From contig MHBW01000017.1 in assembly GCA_001816385.1 (NCBI GenBank), positions 1 through 34,082 on the forward strand: a stretch of 34,082 nucleotides of DNA, written 5' to 3'. Below, piece by piece: positions 25,382 to 29,089 of this stretch (positions are counted from its first letter, which is position 1; each line of letters begins with the position of its first letter). The notes below the pieces were generated by a model. That model was not told where the DNA came from. It saw only the letters and a program-made list of their open reading frames with translations, and searched no databases. Both the position numbers and the translations under genes were made by a program. This DNA is from Candidatus Blackburnbacteria bacterium RIFCSPHIGHO2_01_FULL_43_15b. GTDB lineage: Bacteria > Patescibacteriota > Microgenomatia > UBA8517 > UBA10165.

Positions 25382-25404
25382 ATAATCCTGAGTGTAGTCG
25401 AAGG
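25382..25404. repeat. Dispersed palindromic repeat copy abutting the cassette
   Basis: AATCCTGAGTGTAGTCGAAG followed by GG: a copy of the ATCCT...CGAAGG palindrome family (compare 10551-10581 in the opposite direction). Its CGAAGG end runs directly into the first base of the 92-bp inverted repeat, as if the cassette had joined here. Confidence 0.6.
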
Positions 25405-25495
25405 GCTGGCCGTTTATCGAAAATGTCGAACTTCAATGTGTTAGCTCGGCCTTCGGCCTCGCTATGCTCCAGCGCGGCGCCCCCACCCGCCGCGC
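25404..25495 (+). repeat. 92-bp inverted repeat, cassette A, left copy
   Basis: Perfect reverse complement of 27231-27322. It begins GGCTGGCCGTTTATCG and ends with a GC-rich hairpin GCGCGGCG-CCCCCACC-CGCCGCGC (25472-25495); a second small stem GGCC-TTC-GGCC is in the middle (25448-25458). It is visibly more GC-rich than the flanking genes. Confidence 0.95.
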
Positions 25496-25500
25496 CTCCG

Positions 25501-25540
25501 CTATTTTTTGCGCGCGCGATTTTGGCTTGCTTCGCAAGCC
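25501..25540 (-). terminator. Downstream module of cassette A: hairpin plus 24-bp CG-alternating element
   Basis: On the minus strand, GGCTTGC-GAA-GCAAGCC (25540-25524) comes 2 nt after the stop codon of the cassette gene and is followed by AAAATCGCGCGCGC and AAAAAATAG. The 24-bp stretch 25501-25524 is an exact inverted copy of 28835-28858 in cassette B, where a hairpin of different sequence precedes it. A hairpin placed straight after a stop suggests termination or mRNA end formation, though a U-tract is lacking. Confidence 0.6.
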
Positions 25541-25542
25541 AT

Positions 25543-26979
25543 TTATTTGATTATTTCTGAATCTTTAGGAAGTTCTGATTCTGGCATTCCCTTTACTACA
25601 TTGTAAGTTTTATAGACTGCTGGAGTGTAAACGAACTCAAAATTGTCAGGCAAATTCAGCTCCTTAAAAACTTCCTCCTTAGTTTTTTCTGCCCACAACT
25701 TTTTACAATCACTAGGAGGAGTGTCTAAGTAAGTTTCCTTTACCAAGTCCACTGCATATTTTATTGATTCTGAGTCAGTAAAACAGACTGCTTCGTCTGT
25801 TCTGGTAGCAGAATAGTAGTTGTAGGACTTTGCGGAGGATAAATCCTCTTTCAATTTTGAGCCTATTTGAATCTCTCTAGCTTGACCTTGATTCAAATCA
25901 TAAATATAAACTTTTGTATTTCCAAACATTAACACCTTGCCTATGCCGTCAACCATAAAATACCCCTTCATTTTTTCAGGTAAATCACTGGCATTTATTA
26001 AAGTAACAGTTGAGCCCTCATTACTTAGTGATGAGGCTGCTAACATTTCTGTCTCAAAATGTTGTTGATTGTTAATCCCCTTAGGGATGTTTCTGACATT
26101 TAAGATCATTCTTCCTTGATCGTCTATACCAATAAATTCTTCTTTCCGACTGGAGTCTCTGTCATTTGAGGCACTAGTCATTCTTTCGAGTGGGGTAACT
26201 GTTAAGGAAGCTGGATTAAAAAGCGAGTATGTGCACCCTTCATAACATGAACTACTGACATAGGTATTCCCATATTTTGTTATCTCGTTTCCGATAGGAG
26301 ATGCTAGTTTAGTAACCCGAGATGATCTTTGCGGAGGTAAATCTAATTTATACCCAAGTGAAGCTCCAAATGCACCGCCAACACCAAAATAATAAGTATT
26401 ACCTACAACTTGGCTAGTTGTATACCAAATTTCACCCCATGTGGGTTTTTCGAGCGATATATCAAAAGTCTCACCCGTGTCTATATTATAAACACGAACA
26501 GTTCTTATTTGAGATTGAAGTGTATAGTGTTCGGAAGCTGGGCTACCTAGAAAAGCTCCTCCACTTTTTTCGACATAATTCTCTATATTTATCCCTAGCA
26601 AATAATTATTCCATCTGACCACAGTGGGACTAGGCAAATCTTTTTCCGAAAACTTAAGCCCCGTTGGAAAGTTAGGACTTTTACTATTATCAATTATTTC
26701 CCAATAGTTGGCCTCGCTATCAGTAAAAACTTTAGCATCAACCTTCTTTTCGTTTGGGTTTTTAGGAGTAGGTAATGTTTCAGCAGTTTTAATATCGCCA
26801 CAAATACTCTTTCTCGTATATTTGACGCCATCTTTGACGAAGGTAGGCGCACACCTTTGATATGCAAAATAAAAACCTAGCACTGCCAAAGCTAAATACG
26901 GTAAAACTATAAAAAATATTTTAAATCTACTCAGTTTTCCAAATAATTCCACAAAATGAAGTCGTAATGATGTAAGCAT
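25543..26979 (-). CDS. Membrane-anchored extracytoplasmic protein of unknown function, cassette A cargo
   Basis: 478 residues from ATG at 26979. Residues about 16-38 (FKIFFIVLPYLALAVLGFYF) form an N-terminal anchor, followed by a cysteine-containing segment (QRCAPTFVKDGVKY...SICGD) and a large Ser/Asn/Tyr-rich region that looks beta-rich, with repeated segments such as GKVLMFGNTKVYIYDLNQGQ and SIKYAVDLVKETYL, reminiscent of beta-propeller blades. SSSCYEGCTYSLF could form a disulfide. A further 31 upstream codons are open but contain the promoter. It is the only gene between the 92-bp inverted repeats, so it is cargo, not a transposase. An extracytoplasmic sensor or adhesion role is a guess. 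Confidence 0.75.
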   Translation of the reverse strand: MLTSLRLHFVELFGKLSRFKIFFIVLPYLALAVLGFYFAYQRCAPTFVKDGVKYTRKSICGDIKTAETLPTPKNPNEKKVDAKVFTDSEANYWEIIDNSKSPNFPTGLKFSEKDLPSPTVVRWNNYLLGINIENYVEKSGGAFLGSPASEHYTLQSQIRTVRVYNIDTGETFDISLEKPTWGEIWYTTSQVVGNTYYFGVGGAFGASLGYKLDLPPQRSSRVTKLASPIGNEITKYGNTYVSSSCYEGCTYSLFNPASLTVTPLERMTSASNDRDSSRKEEFIGIDDQGRMILNVRNIPKGINNQQHFETEMLAASSLSNEGSTVTLINASDLPEKMKGYFMVDGIGKVLMFGNTKVYIYDLNQGQAREIQIGSKLKEDLSSAKSYNYYSATRTDEAVCFTDSESIKYAVDLVKETYLDTPPSDCKKLWAEKTKEEVFKELNLPDNFEFVYTPAVYKTYNVVKGMPESELPKDSEIIK

Positions 26980-26989
26980 ACTTATTATG

Positions 26990-26998
26990 ATTATAGCA
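26990..26998 (-). promoter_or_regulatory. Extended -10 promoter of the cassette A gene
   Basis: TGC-TATAAT on the minus strand (TATAAT at 26995-26990), a consensus extended -10, 10 nt before the ATG at 26979. No convincing -35, as expected for extended -10 promoters. Predicted leader about 3 nt. Confidence 0.55.
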
Positions 26999-27062
26999 GA
27001 TTTTGAAAGATCTAGTACGCAGAAGGTCATTGCATTTACTGATGACAATTGGTATATTTTTC

Positions 27063-27150
27063 TTGTACTCAACTTGTTCGGATTGCTTTTTTAATGGCCG
27101 CTTTGGACAATTTGGAGCAATCCGAGTTGAGTACAACCAGAGCGGCCATT
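27063..27150. repeat. Interleaved inverted repeats with pseudoknot topology
   Basis: Three complementary pairs occur in order A-B-C-B'-A'-C'. A TTGTACTCAACT (27063-27074) pairs with 27125-27136; B TCGGATTGC (27078-27086) pairs with 27117-27125; C AATGGCCGCT (27093-27102), in the A/B loop, pairs with AGCGGCCATT (27141-27150) outside it. This is the arrangement of an H-type pseudoknot if transcribed, or a folded single-strand substrate. It lies upstream of the cassette A promoter. Confidence 0.7.
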
Positions 27151-27157
27151 TAAGTTA

Positions 27158-27190
27158 AAAAGTTCTTTAAAATTTTTGCGTTTTTCTTTT
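27158..27190 (-). repeat. Upstream module of cassette A
   Basis: On the minus strand AAAAGAAAAACGCAAAAATT followed directly by TTAAAGAACTTTT. The same two blocks in the same order occur upstream of the recombinase in cassette B (27433-27452 and 27491-27503), where 38 nt separate them. The position relative to the gene is the same: between the inverted repeat and the start. Confidence 0.75.
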
Positions 27191-27207
27191 AGTCGCTTTC
27201 AGCGACT
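27191..27207. terminator. Stem-loop AGTCGC-TTTCA-GCGACT in cassette A
   Basis: A perfect 6-bp stem followed on the plus strand by TTTT, and preceded by TTTT, so it could act as a weak terminator in either direction. It would insulate the cassette gene from transcription entering through the inverted repeat. Confidence 0.4.
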
Positions 27208-27230
27208 TTTACGAGTCGACAGTTTCGGAA

Positions 27231-27322
27231 GCGCGGCGGGTGGGGGCGCCGCGCTGGAGCATAGCGAGGCCGAAGGCCGAGCTAACACATTGAAGTTCGA
27301 CATTTTCGATAAACGGCCAGCC
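27231..27322 (-). repeat. 92-bp inverted repeat, cassette A, right copy
   Basis: Exact reverse complement of 25404-25495. The last 5 bp (CAGCC) are shared with the first bases of the 105-bp repeat of cassette B, so the two cassettes are joined without a spacer. Confidence 0.95.
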
Positions 27323-27422
27323 AGTAAGAATTAGAAGGAGGTTGGGAGGTAGCGCTTTCCGCGCCCGCCTCCACGGAAAGCGCGTCAAATCCGCCTTTTT
27401 TGAAACTTGCTGACAGCCGCCG
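27318..27422 (-). repeat. 105-bp inverted repeat, cassette B, left copy
   Basis: Exact reverse complement of 28917-29021. It starts CAGCCAGTAAGAATTAG; the first CAGCCA equals the 3' end of the tRNA-Gln gene, now lacking the rest of the tRNA. It contains a 10-bp GC-rich hairpin, GCGCTTTCCG...CGGAAAGCGC with a 12-nt loop. Confidence 0.95.
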
Positions 27423-27432
27423 GAAAAAGAAG

Positions 27433-27503
27433 AAAGAAAAAACGCAAAAATTGGGTTTCTTGGAAAGAAACCTTGCTCGCTACCGTTCGCTTAAAGAACT
27501 TTT
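27433..27503 (+). repeat. Upstream module of cassette B with internal hairpin
   Basis: AAAGAAAAAACGCAAAAATT (27433-27452) and TTAAAGAACTTTT (27491-27503) are the two blocks shared with cassette A. Between them 38 nt include the hairpin GGTTTCTT-GGA-AAGAAACC (27454-27472). The recombinase ATG follows 18 nt later. No consensus promoter or Shine-Dalgarno sequence is evident in that gap. Confidence 0.7.
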
Positions 27504-27521
27504 AGAAGATAAGATAAAAAC

Positions 27522-29078
27522 ATGATCAAATATATTGCGTATTGCAGAAAATCAACTGACGAGCCAGATAGACAAATTTTGTCTATTGAGGCGCAAGTTG
27601 CAGAACTCGAAGAACACTCCGCAAAAGAAAATTTGAAAATCGTTTCTTTTATTACTGAGAGTAAAACCGCAAAGGAACCCGGGAGGGAAAAATTTGCAGA
27701 AGTATTAAAAGAAATTGAGGACGGAAAAGCTGATGGAATTTTATCGTGGCATCCAGACCGTTTGGCTCGTAATTCTATTGACGGCGGAAAGATTATCTAT
27801 TTATTGGACATCGGAAAGTTGCTTGACCTGAAATTTCCGTCTTTTTGGTTTGAAAATACACCGCAAGGCAAGTTTATGTTAGGGATGGCCTTTAATCAGT
27901 CTAAGTATTATGTTGATAATCTTTCTGAGAATGTAAAAAGAGGAAACAGACAGAAACTCCGCCGAGGCGAATGGCCAAATCAAGCACAGTTTGGTTACCT
28001 AAACATTAACAAGAAAATAGAAGTTGATAAGAAACGGGCCAAGTATGTGCAAAAAGCTTTCCAGCTTTTTGCTACCGGCGGCTATGGTTATGCTGATATC
28101 CGCAAATTTTTCAACCAAAATAAAATTTACAACAAGTCCGGTCATGAACTCCACCTTGATAAAGTCAAAAGAATTTTGACCGATCCGTTTTACTACGGAG
28201 TGATGAGATTTTGCGGCGAACTCTACGAAGGAAAACATGAACCTTTAATCTCCAAGAAACTTTTTGATAAATGCCAAGAAGTTGTGAAACTCAAAAGCAG
28301 GAAAGTCAAAAATAATAAACATTTATTTGATTTTCTTGGTTTGGTGAAGTGCGGCGAATGCGGCGGCGCAATCACTGCCGAAAAACATACCAAGTACTAC
28401 AAACGGACAAATAGAAAAGCTGAGTATATCTACTATCGCTGCTCTAAAAAAATGGGTACCTGCTCGCAAAAATATATTGATAAGGTAGAAATTGAAAAGC
28501 AATTAAGGGAAAATGTTTTGCGAGCATCTTTGCCGCCGCACGCCGCCAAAAAGTTTCTGGAGTGGGCTGATAAAGACGCAAACCAAGAAAAAGAAAAATC
28601 ATCCGGTATTGTTTTAACCTATCAACTCCAACTCAAGGAAACGGAGGAAAAGACAGATCGTTTGCTTGAGGGCTACTTGGACAAAGTTATTTCTCCCGAA
28701 GATTACCAAAAGAAAAAGAACGAATTAGTCGAAACAAAATCACTTCTTAACTCCAAAATTAAGGACATTCCAACAAACGGTGTTGAGTGGCTCGAACCTT
28801 TCCAGGAATTCGTAAATAGTGCGCTTTCGGCGCACAAAATCGCGCGCGCAAAAAATAGTTGCCATGATTTAGCAATCATGGCAAAAACTGTCGGCTCGAA
28901 CTTCTTTTTAATGAATCGGCGGCTGTCAGCAAGTTTCAAAAAAGGCGGATTTGACGCGCTTTCCGTGGAGGCGGGCGCGGAAAGCGCTACCTCCCAACCT
29001 CCTTCTAATTCTTACTGGCTGCGGGACTTGGATTCGAACCAAGATACCATCCTCCAGAGGGATGTGGCCTACCGTTAG
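27522..29078 (+). CDS. Large serine recombinase (resolvase/integrase family)
   Basis: 518 residues. The resolvase N-terminal domain opens MIKYIAYCRKSTDE with catalytic S11, and LSWHPDRLARNSIDGGKI carries the conserved arginines. The Recombinase domain (about 150-260) starts GYLNINKKIEVDKKRAKYVQ. A zinc ribbon has C277, C280, C307 and C314. A coiled-coil segment (about 355-420, QLQLKETEEKTDRLLEGYLD) follows. Such enzymes cut at a 2-nt core through a 5'-phosphoserine link and integrate, excise or invert DNA. The last 53 codons (from 466) are encoded by the 105-bp inverted repeat and then by the antisense of tRNA-Gln, ending LRDLDSNQDTILQRDVAYR. Excision or inversion would therefore change the protein's C terminus. 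It is the only recombinase in the cassette pair. Confidence 0.93.
   Translation: MIKYIAYCRKSTDEPDRQILSIEAQVAELEEHSAKENLKIVSFITESKTAKEPGREKFAEVLKEIEDGKADGILSWHPDRLARNSIDGGKIIYLLDIGKLLDLKFPSFWFENTPQGKFMLGMAFNQSKYYVDNLSENVKRGNRQKLRRGEWPNQAQFGYLNINKKIEVDKKRAKYVQKAFQLFATGGYGYADIRKFFNQNKIYNKSGHELHLDKVKRILTDPFYYGVMRFCGELYEGKHEPLISKKLFDKCQEVVKLKSRKVKNNKHLFDFLGLVKCGECGGAITAEKHTKYYKRTNRKAEYIYYRCSKKMGTCSQKYIDKVEIEKQLRENVLRASLPPHAAKKFLEWADKDANQEKEKSSGIVLTYQLQLKETEEKTDRLLEGYLDKVISPEDYQKKKNELVETKSLLNSKIKDIPTNGVEWLEPFQEFVNSALSAHKIARAKNSCHDLAIMAKTVGSNFFLMNRRLSASFKKGGFDALSVEAGAESATSQPPSNSYWLRDLDSNQDTILQRDVAYR
28819..28884 (+). repeat. Downstream module of cassette B: two hairpins around the 24-bp element
   Basis: Hairpin GTGCGC-TTTCG-GCGCAC (28819-28835), then the 24-bp element 28835-28858 (exact inverted copy of 25501-25524), then a perfect 11-bp stem TTGCCATGATT-TAGC-AATCATGGCAA (28859-28884). 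Unlike cassette A, where it follows the stop codon, here the module lies inside the recombinase reading frame (residues about 433-454). Confidence 0.75.
28917..29021 (+). repeat. 105-bp inverted repeat, cassette B, right copy, ending in the tRNA CCA end
   Basis: Exact reverse complement of 27318-27422. The outer six bases TGGCTG are the complement of the tRNA-Gln 3' end (CAGCCA). The repeat is also coding for recombinase residues 466-500. The hairpin GCGCTTTCCG...CGGAAAGCGC is at 28956-28987. Confidence 0.95.
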
Positions 29079-29089
29079 CCGATCCCGCA
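29016..29089 (-). tRNA. tRNA-Gln (anticodon CUG)
   Basis: 74 nt with encoded CCA. The acceptor stem TGCGGGA pairs with TCCCGCA, giving the U1-A72 pair and G73 typical of bacterial tRNA-Gln. The D arm is GGCTAACGGTAGGCC. The anticodon stem CATCC/GGATG has loop CTCTGGA, so the anticodon is CUG. The T arm is CTTGG-TTCGAAT-CCAAG. Every stem is fully paired. A TAAAAT hexamer (29106-29101) lies 11 nt before the 5' end. The CCA end is the boundary of the 105-bp repeat, so the element inserted at the 3' end and left the tRNA intact. Confidence 0.95.

Follow-up and report, generated by a model that had tools for sequence, protein, structure and literature searches.

Genes and features of the locus

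The window, a stretch of 34,082 nucleotides of contig MHBW01000017.1 from Candidatus Blackburnbacteria bacterium RIFCSPHIGHO2_01_FULL_43_15b, holds between positions 25404 and 29021 a cargo gene and a gene for a large serine recombinase (hereafter, the integrase), set among two pairs of inverted repeats, the a arms and the b arms, and ending at a tRNA-Gln gene. The integrase contains the Resolvase, Recombinase, and zinc-ribbon domains by which large serine recombinases are defined, all above the Pfam cut-offs. The features, in window coordinates and with attachment-site names that anticipate the interpretation below, are as follows.

25404-25500, plus strand: putative attL (junction J1), with chromosomal flank X, core GGCTG (25404-25408), and an a arm that diverges from the flank exactly at the core
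25501-25524, plus strand: 24-mer, complement of the integrase 3' coding region 28835-28858; a perfect match to its own element, in a position kept in most type 1 relatives
25523-25541, plus strand: hairpin hpC
25543-26979, minus strand: cargo gene, 478 aa, with an N-terminal membrane helix and of no known family
27030-27058, plus strand: predicted promoter TTGCAT-17-TATATT, directed at the inner attP and the integrase; a TTG-17-TAtA-type box with equal spacing lies upstream of R1 in relatives
27056-27151, plus strand: candidate structured leader RNA R1, with stem P1, an inner hairpin, and a 5' arm pairing with the 3' side of the hairpin, supported by covariation
27171-27225, minus strand: cargo-end patches, comprising the complement of the A-rich module (27171-27185), hpB (27191-27207), and the complement of the GSNFF segment (27212-27225)
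27226-27422, minus strand: putative inner attP (J2), intact and inverted, with b arm 27318-27422, core 27318-27322, and a arm 27226-27322; its TCGAAC spacing is P-type, and its arms match those of attL and attR
27438-27503, plus strand: A-rich module (27438-27452) and TTAAAGAACTTTT (27491-27503), ahead of the integrase start
27522-29078, plus strand: large serine recombinase (integrase) with Resolvase, Recombinase, and Zn_ribbon_recom domains
28819-28901, plus strand: within the integrase ORF, hpD (28819-28835), 24-mer (28835-28858), hpA (28859-28884), and GSNFF segment (28885-28901)
28917-29021, plus strand: putative attR (J3), with b arm, core (29017-29021), and tRNA-Gln 3' end
29016-29089, minus strand: tRNA-Gln(ctg), the target, with its 3' GCCA inside the b arm of the element

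An earlier note had described the locus as two cassettes, A and B, each between perfect inverted repeats. For B, its 105-bp repeats are confirmed as the b arms (27318-27422 and 28917-29021), which are 100% complementary; for A, the repeats are real, and the 92 bp and the perfection assigned to them give way to a arms of 97 bp (25404-25500 and 27226-27322) that are complementary at 96 of 97 positions, with one mismatch. The 24-bp module and the A-rich module had both been recognized correctly in the two halves: the former is a perfect inverted pair (25501-25524 and 28835-28858), and the latter stands on either side of the inner junction (27171-27185 and 27438-27452). The a-arm and b-arm pairs abut, with 5 bp common to both (27318-27322), and the core GGCTG is common to the outer ends of all arms. 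Both the second copy of the 24-mer and the right b arm lie within the recombinase ORF, the 3' end of which crosses this arm into the tRNA-Gln gene; the arm itself terminates in the tRNA 3' end.

The cargo protein, with its N-terminal hydrophobic helix, matched no family, and its structure model (pLDDT 36) was uninformative; it is 87% identical to the cargo of locus L054 in a Collierbacteria MAG. A promoter -10 element, TATAAT, stands immediately before the ATG of its gene.

Attachment sites and target tRNA

The left end of the locus has the order X-GGCTG-a, the middle (minus strand) b-GGCTG-a, and the right end b-GGCTG-tRNA. Judged from these sequences, the three junctions are attL, an intact attP, and attR, and the arms, whose two pairs the earlier note had taken to be unrelated, are half-sites of one attachment site sharing the core. 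In a core-aligned alignment of 28 complete elements, X was unconserved, the core and a were conserved, and the tRNA half showed the T-arm. At 40 of 48 loci, the distance between the core and TCGAAC was 4 to 5 bp greater in the a half (attP) than in the tRNA half. A 5-bp shift of the zinc-ribbon (ZD) motif between attP and attB has been established for a serine integrase (PMC3783163); the spacing seen here matches that shift, and the middle site is therefore best regarded as a true attP. The locus thus has the two marks of a serine-integrase integrative element, namely an attL and an attR of the kind formed from attP and attB with a short common core and a ZD motif shifted outward by about 5 bp in attP relative to attB. 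Taken together, these features very probably constitute one 3.6-kb integrative mobile element (25404-29021), in which A is the cargo half and B is the integrase half, an estimate that covers the element with its att sites and excludes the single-strand step considered below; its architecture of two halves and three junctions is strongly supported.

Other classes of mobile element fit less well. That the locus is neither an insertion sequence nor an integron, as the earlier note had argued, holds: the two outer ends, a and b, do not repeat one another, the core common to the junctions is mostly 4 to 6 bp and of the att type, unlike the target-site duplication of an insertion sequence, and the recombinase is of the serine class. 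The further statement that this is no standard integrative element is half right, since attL and attR do lie at a tRNA gene, as in such an element, and the intact inverted inner attP and the complementary halves do set it apart. In SCC elements, a Ccr-type recombinase inserts in rlmH, with direct repeats; here, the NCBIfam Ccr models scored 64 to 97 against cut-offs of 700 to 900, and the target is a tRNA, not rlmH.

The genome G001, from the same family, has a tRNA-Gln gene without the element and with matching genes downstream (for an LPXTG-like protein, an L,D-transpeptidase, and lon), and the sequence after this tRNA is unrelated. No contig was circular, and no right flank matched the a arm. 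Protein and pattern searches of IMG/VR for circular or viral forms returned no relative, and plasmids and phages yielded only distant recombinases with less than 60% identity. No recombination directionality factor was recognized in the window element, which encodes only the integrase and the one cargo protein.

The integrase C-terminus

The integrase is 518 aa long as integrated, with a tail derived from the antisense strand of the tRNA gene, and 511 aa long when b is joined to a, with a tail ending in AVYRKCRTSMC (...YWLAVYRKCRTSMC in the joined form versus ...YWLRDLDSNQDTILQRDVAYR as integrated). A conserved tail, [CIVA]R[TS]x[FM], which resembles KIRTxF, appeared in 40/40 elements when b was read into a and in 0/40 when b was read into the tRNA. 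Because the b-core-a joint alone yields this tail, the integrase C-terminus would be supplied by the distal a arm only after joining, and we infer from this conservation that the element has a joined (circular) form. A search of same-genus genomes with the joined flanks of several elements gave no clean empty site, the species lying far apart in DNA, and the conservation of the tail is therefore the strongest evidence for both the circular form and the borders of the element.

Integration swaps the conserved KIRT-like tail for an antisense-tRNA tail such as DLDSNQD. This exchange is a possible on/off switch and a possible source of odd annotated C-termini. An attP that lies inside a phage gene is likewise known to change the C-terminus of a protein on integration; here, VYRKCRTSMC is replaced by RDLDSNQD..., and the protein altered is the integrase itself.

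Relatives, distribution, and cargo

Related integrases were gathered from 57 genomes of the order and from 80 loci of named species. The b arms bound the integrase in 56/62 relatives with enough flank (median of 100.5 bp, 99.6%), and a arms were also present in 23/29 loci with 8 kb upstream and missing from 6/29; all loci together gave 32 a-arm pairs with a median length of 101.5 bp, the longest, in AP024682.1, having 292 bp at 100%. Inverted repeats of 40 bp or more were absent from ten more distant large serine recombinase loci; several of these loci adjoin tRNAs, and their repeat-less integrases cluster together on the tree. This distribution is far beyond chance. The proposal of the earlier note of a modular mobile family driven by a serine recombinase holds, and the family is seen across Patescibacteria. 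The plan is also present in the complete genomes CP011210.1 (L062 and L111) and AP024682.1 (L117), and the first ten complete elements measured span 3.3 to 9.3 kb. The window integrase is 90 to 92% identical to copies in five Microgenomates lineages (Collier-, Roizman-, Chisholm-, Gottesman-, and Levybacteria), a sign of recent transfer.

At 56/57 loci, covering 14 isotypes, the integrase 3' end adjoins a tRNA gene, which is antisense in every case, an orientation of 56:1. Only at L090 (9753-10001) does the integrase 5' end face the tRNA, by other-strand (or inner-attP) integration, by inversion, or by misassembly across the repeat. Arms within one element are mostly 97 to 100% identical, with exceptions near 91 to 92% (L057 and L059), and arms of different relatives are about 55 to 95% identical; the identity within elements exceeds that between relatives, and both arms therefore change together, in concerted evolution.

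The cargo varies among related elements. It consists of restriction-modification genes with an OLD-like ATPase in L041 (3099-7934), a Shedu protein in L061 (8290-9576), N6/N4 DNA methylases in L104 and L105, ABC transporter-like genes in L046, and putative surface proteins in L073 and L111. The comparison of cargo and arms in related genomes that the earlier note had recommended thus showed arms of the same type enclosing cargo that differs from genome to genome, in support of one element and not of a pair of cassettes.

Several loci depart from the common plan. At L069, L076, L102, and L128, the right end adjoins non-tRNA sequence, and L069 and L102 have GGAAC at P-type distance from the core. 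The complete genome AP024682.1 has two tandem elements at one tRNA-Ser (L117, 9423-15175), one inserted in the attR of the other. The source genome of the window holds a second element on contig C32 (L182, 6526-17420), with 77-bp perfect b arms and away from any tRNA, in a region that also includes a further attL and a broken integrase leading to tRNA-Gly. A relic at tRNA-Gln (L052, 4035-6145) has lost the integrase half, so that b' is fused to b, and retains the inner a arm, leader modules, cargo (short-chain dehydrogenase-like and HAD-like genes), 24-mer, and attL. A few loci lie in bins labeled Verrucomicrobia, Bdellovibrio, Deltaproteobacteria, Omnitrophota, and Marinimicrobia (L125, L126, L128, L129, L103, and L104), which reflects either a wider host range or binning errors.

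Complementary patches and hairpins

Segments of 14 to 37 nt at the cargo ends are mostly perfect reverse complements of the integrase half of the same element. The longest inverted match had a median of 18 to 19 nt, compared with 8 to 9 nt in direct orientation or after shuffling, and matches to an element's own integrase were longer than those to the integrases of other elements (medians of 10 and 13). In type 1 elements, to which the window element belongs, the partner of the left cargo end is the 24-mer in the 3' part of the integrase coding region, and the partners of the right cargo end are the GSNFF codons and the A-rich leader. In type 2 elements, mostly at tRNA-Ser, three abutting patches cover the right cargo end at J2, from about -67 to -1, with one patch directly against the a arm and another matching sequence that lies directly against the b arm. 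When the element is considered as a single strand, the patches fall at the junctions on both ends of a b-core-a/a'-core'-b' duplex, and hairpins of varied stem sequence with almost no mismatches, two of them inside the coding region, occupy fixed places between the patches. Patches were absent or unrecognized in some elements (L041, L044, and L040).

Neither arms (47 versus 53) nor patches (4 versus 5) have a bias of G.T over A.C mismatches; this lack of a G.T excess argues for folding as DNA, not RNA, and an assignment of arms and patches to RNA structures was rejected for want of wobble bias. The A-rich module was also considered as a cargo promoter and rejected, since it flanks the inner attP whichever direction the cargo gene points. 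The patches could in part be protein-binding sites.

The leader RNA R1

R1 is a 96-nt motif with a conserved sigma-70-like promoter, located ahead of the integrase. Its stem P1 and a long pairing, P2, covary, with 13 pairs changed on both sides and a covariation score of 0.496 against 0.134 after shuffling, and stem P1 and the inner hairpin also covary. Stem P1 has 33 G.T and 1 A.C, 24 of the 33 coming from a single invariant U.G column. P2 and the inner hairpin compete for one strand, and R1 may therefore switch. The Rfam search matched only the tRNA, R1 included among the sequences without a match. R1 was found in 23/57 genomes of the order, and it lies directly ahead of distant integrases that lack the double attP (for example, G005:C14, G002:C27, and G033:C7), a position that identifies it as an integrase leader. 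In type 1 elements, the inner attP stands between R1 and the integrase; in L040 (genome G006), R1 is on the integrase side, so that attP is upstream of the promoter. On the strength of its covariation, we propose R1 as a new structured RNA and a candidate regulatory RNA.

Role of the inner attP

Comparison of the elements establishes, at the level of sequence, the att sites, the target tRNA, and a joint under selection, from which we infer that the integrase integrates a joined form. This enzyme, a large serine integrase directed at tRNA genes, would recombine attP (b-core-a) with attB in the 3' terminus of such a gene, and this would yield attL (X-core-a) and attR (b-core-tRNA), with the variable cargo carried along. 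A second complete attP is kept inside the element, inverted, between the integrase and the cargo, and it evolves in concert with the arms of attL and attR.

Our leading reading, advanced tentatively, is that the mobile form is single-stranded and that its inverted copies pair into one double-stranded attP; the weight we give it refers to a general role of the structure and includes simple splinted circularization of incoming strands. Short complementary patches and hairpins would clamp both ends of the paired attP duplex. One-strand exchange of b-core-a with attB, followed by replication, would give X-core-a-cargo-a'-core'-b'-integrase-b-core-tRNA in one fixed orientation, and exchange of the opposite strand would give the rare L090 orientation. 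Competence DNA uptake delivers single strands and would suit the delivery of a single-stranded element. The competence uptake proteins ComEC, DprA, and ComFC are conserved across CPR phyla (PMC10633639). A folded single strand would explain the identity of the arms well beyond the size of an att site, the fixed orientation, and the inverted patches and hairpins. The stricter proposition of true one-strand recombination, in which a large serine integrase joins the folded single-stranded attP to tRNA genes, appears rather unlikely. Large serine integrases cut both strands, and to our knowledge one-strand exchange on folded DNA is a chemistry not known for serine recombinases; cutting both strands of the folded DNA would produce chromosome arms that end in hairpins, which argues against the single-strand step.

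The main rival to the single-strand reading, a serious possibility that we would not call probable, is that the element moves as an ordinary double-stranded circle, with the inner attP acting as an operator or leader that controls the integrase gene and the arms kept alike by RecA gene conversion. The type 1 integrase promoter and leader RNA, which lie across the inner attP from the gene, are consistent with such a role, as is the concerted evolution of the arms. However, two identical attP copies in a circle should give both orientations, and 56:1 was seen; an operator requires about 50 bp, and the arms reach 292 bp; neither the inverted patches nor the hairpins are explained; and in G006 the leader is on the integrase side, with attP upstream of the promoter.

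An inversion system, with the integrase or cargo half flipped between the inverted arms by the recombinase or by host recombination, as phase variation or as copy-number amplification of the yeast 2-micron kind, would account for the flanking of each half by inverted recombination sites and for the integrase 5' end at the tRNA in L090. We nevertheless consider it improbable, given the 56:1 orientation, which leaves inversion by the recombinase, as proposed earlier, unsupported as a frequent event, and the constant orientation of the modules; flipping would also not switch a promoter located within the flipped segment. Serine integrases unaided do not recombine attP with attL or attR, which counts further against this reading.

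That A is a second, non-autonomous cassette mobilized by an independent cassette B, as the earlier note had it, is very improbable, even with two inverted-repeat pairs of different sequence. A is instead the cargo half, its arms being attL and half of the inner attP. Each arm represents one half of a single attP, all complete relatives have the a pair directly adjoining the b pair at the inner attP, no a-flanked cassette copies occur elsewhere in the source genome, and the recombinase-less relic L052 is still on a tRNA with b and a. Assembly artefact, which the MAG-type contigs and inverted repeats near read length might suggest, can be dismissed almost entirely, as the plan recurs with different arm sequences in dozens of organisms, complete genomes included, and the integrase tail is conserved across the joint.

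Relation to known systems

Elements and prophages with large serine integrases (of the A118/LI integrase type, phiC31, and Bxb1) share with the window element the Resolvase, Recombinase, and zinc-ribbon domains, the 5-bp-shifted ZD-type motif in attP and attB, and an attL and attR when integrated. Unlike them, the window-type element targets tRNA 3' ends and keeps a complete inverted attP and complementary patches.

Integron cassettes and CTXphi are precedents for a single-strand route, both with tyrosine recombinases. The cassettes, in which attC folds as a single strand and one strand is exchanged, have variable cargo in common with the elements described here, and their folding is an analogy for our leading reading; the present element differs in having neither the IntI tyrosine integrase nor attC, and in its tRNA target. 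In CTXphi-type filamentous phages, two inverted attP copies pair in the single-stranded genome (PMC4246890). The window element likewise has two inversely oriented attP copies able to pair into one site; CTXphi uses XerC/D, whereas here the enzyme is a serine integrase and the copies are kilobases apart. No phage or rolling-circle genes were seen in the window element. Like the circle of the yeast 2-micron plasmid (FLP), the element consists of two unique halves separated by perfect inverted repeats, and in both, the repeats contain recombination sites and extend into the recombinase gene; unlike that plasmid, the element integrates into tRNA genes and uses a serine enzyme, and plasmid replication or flipping is not evident. 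Literature searches outside subscription journals found no element with such an inverted second attP, and the plan of one element with a double attP is new as far as this literature extends.

Our results put a name to a small mobile element that is widespread among ultrasmall, uncultured bacteria and that takes, as cargo, genes for restriction-modification, Shedu defence, surface proteins, and transporters from one lineage to another. Its integrases, with defined tRNA targets and att sites, are candidate tools for genome engineering. The element raises the questions of why a perfect inverted spare attP is kept and whether serine integrases can act on folded single-stranded DNA; if the single-strand reading is true, a large family of mobile elements in Patescibacteria, and perhaps in some other phyla too, would move as folded single-stranded DNA.
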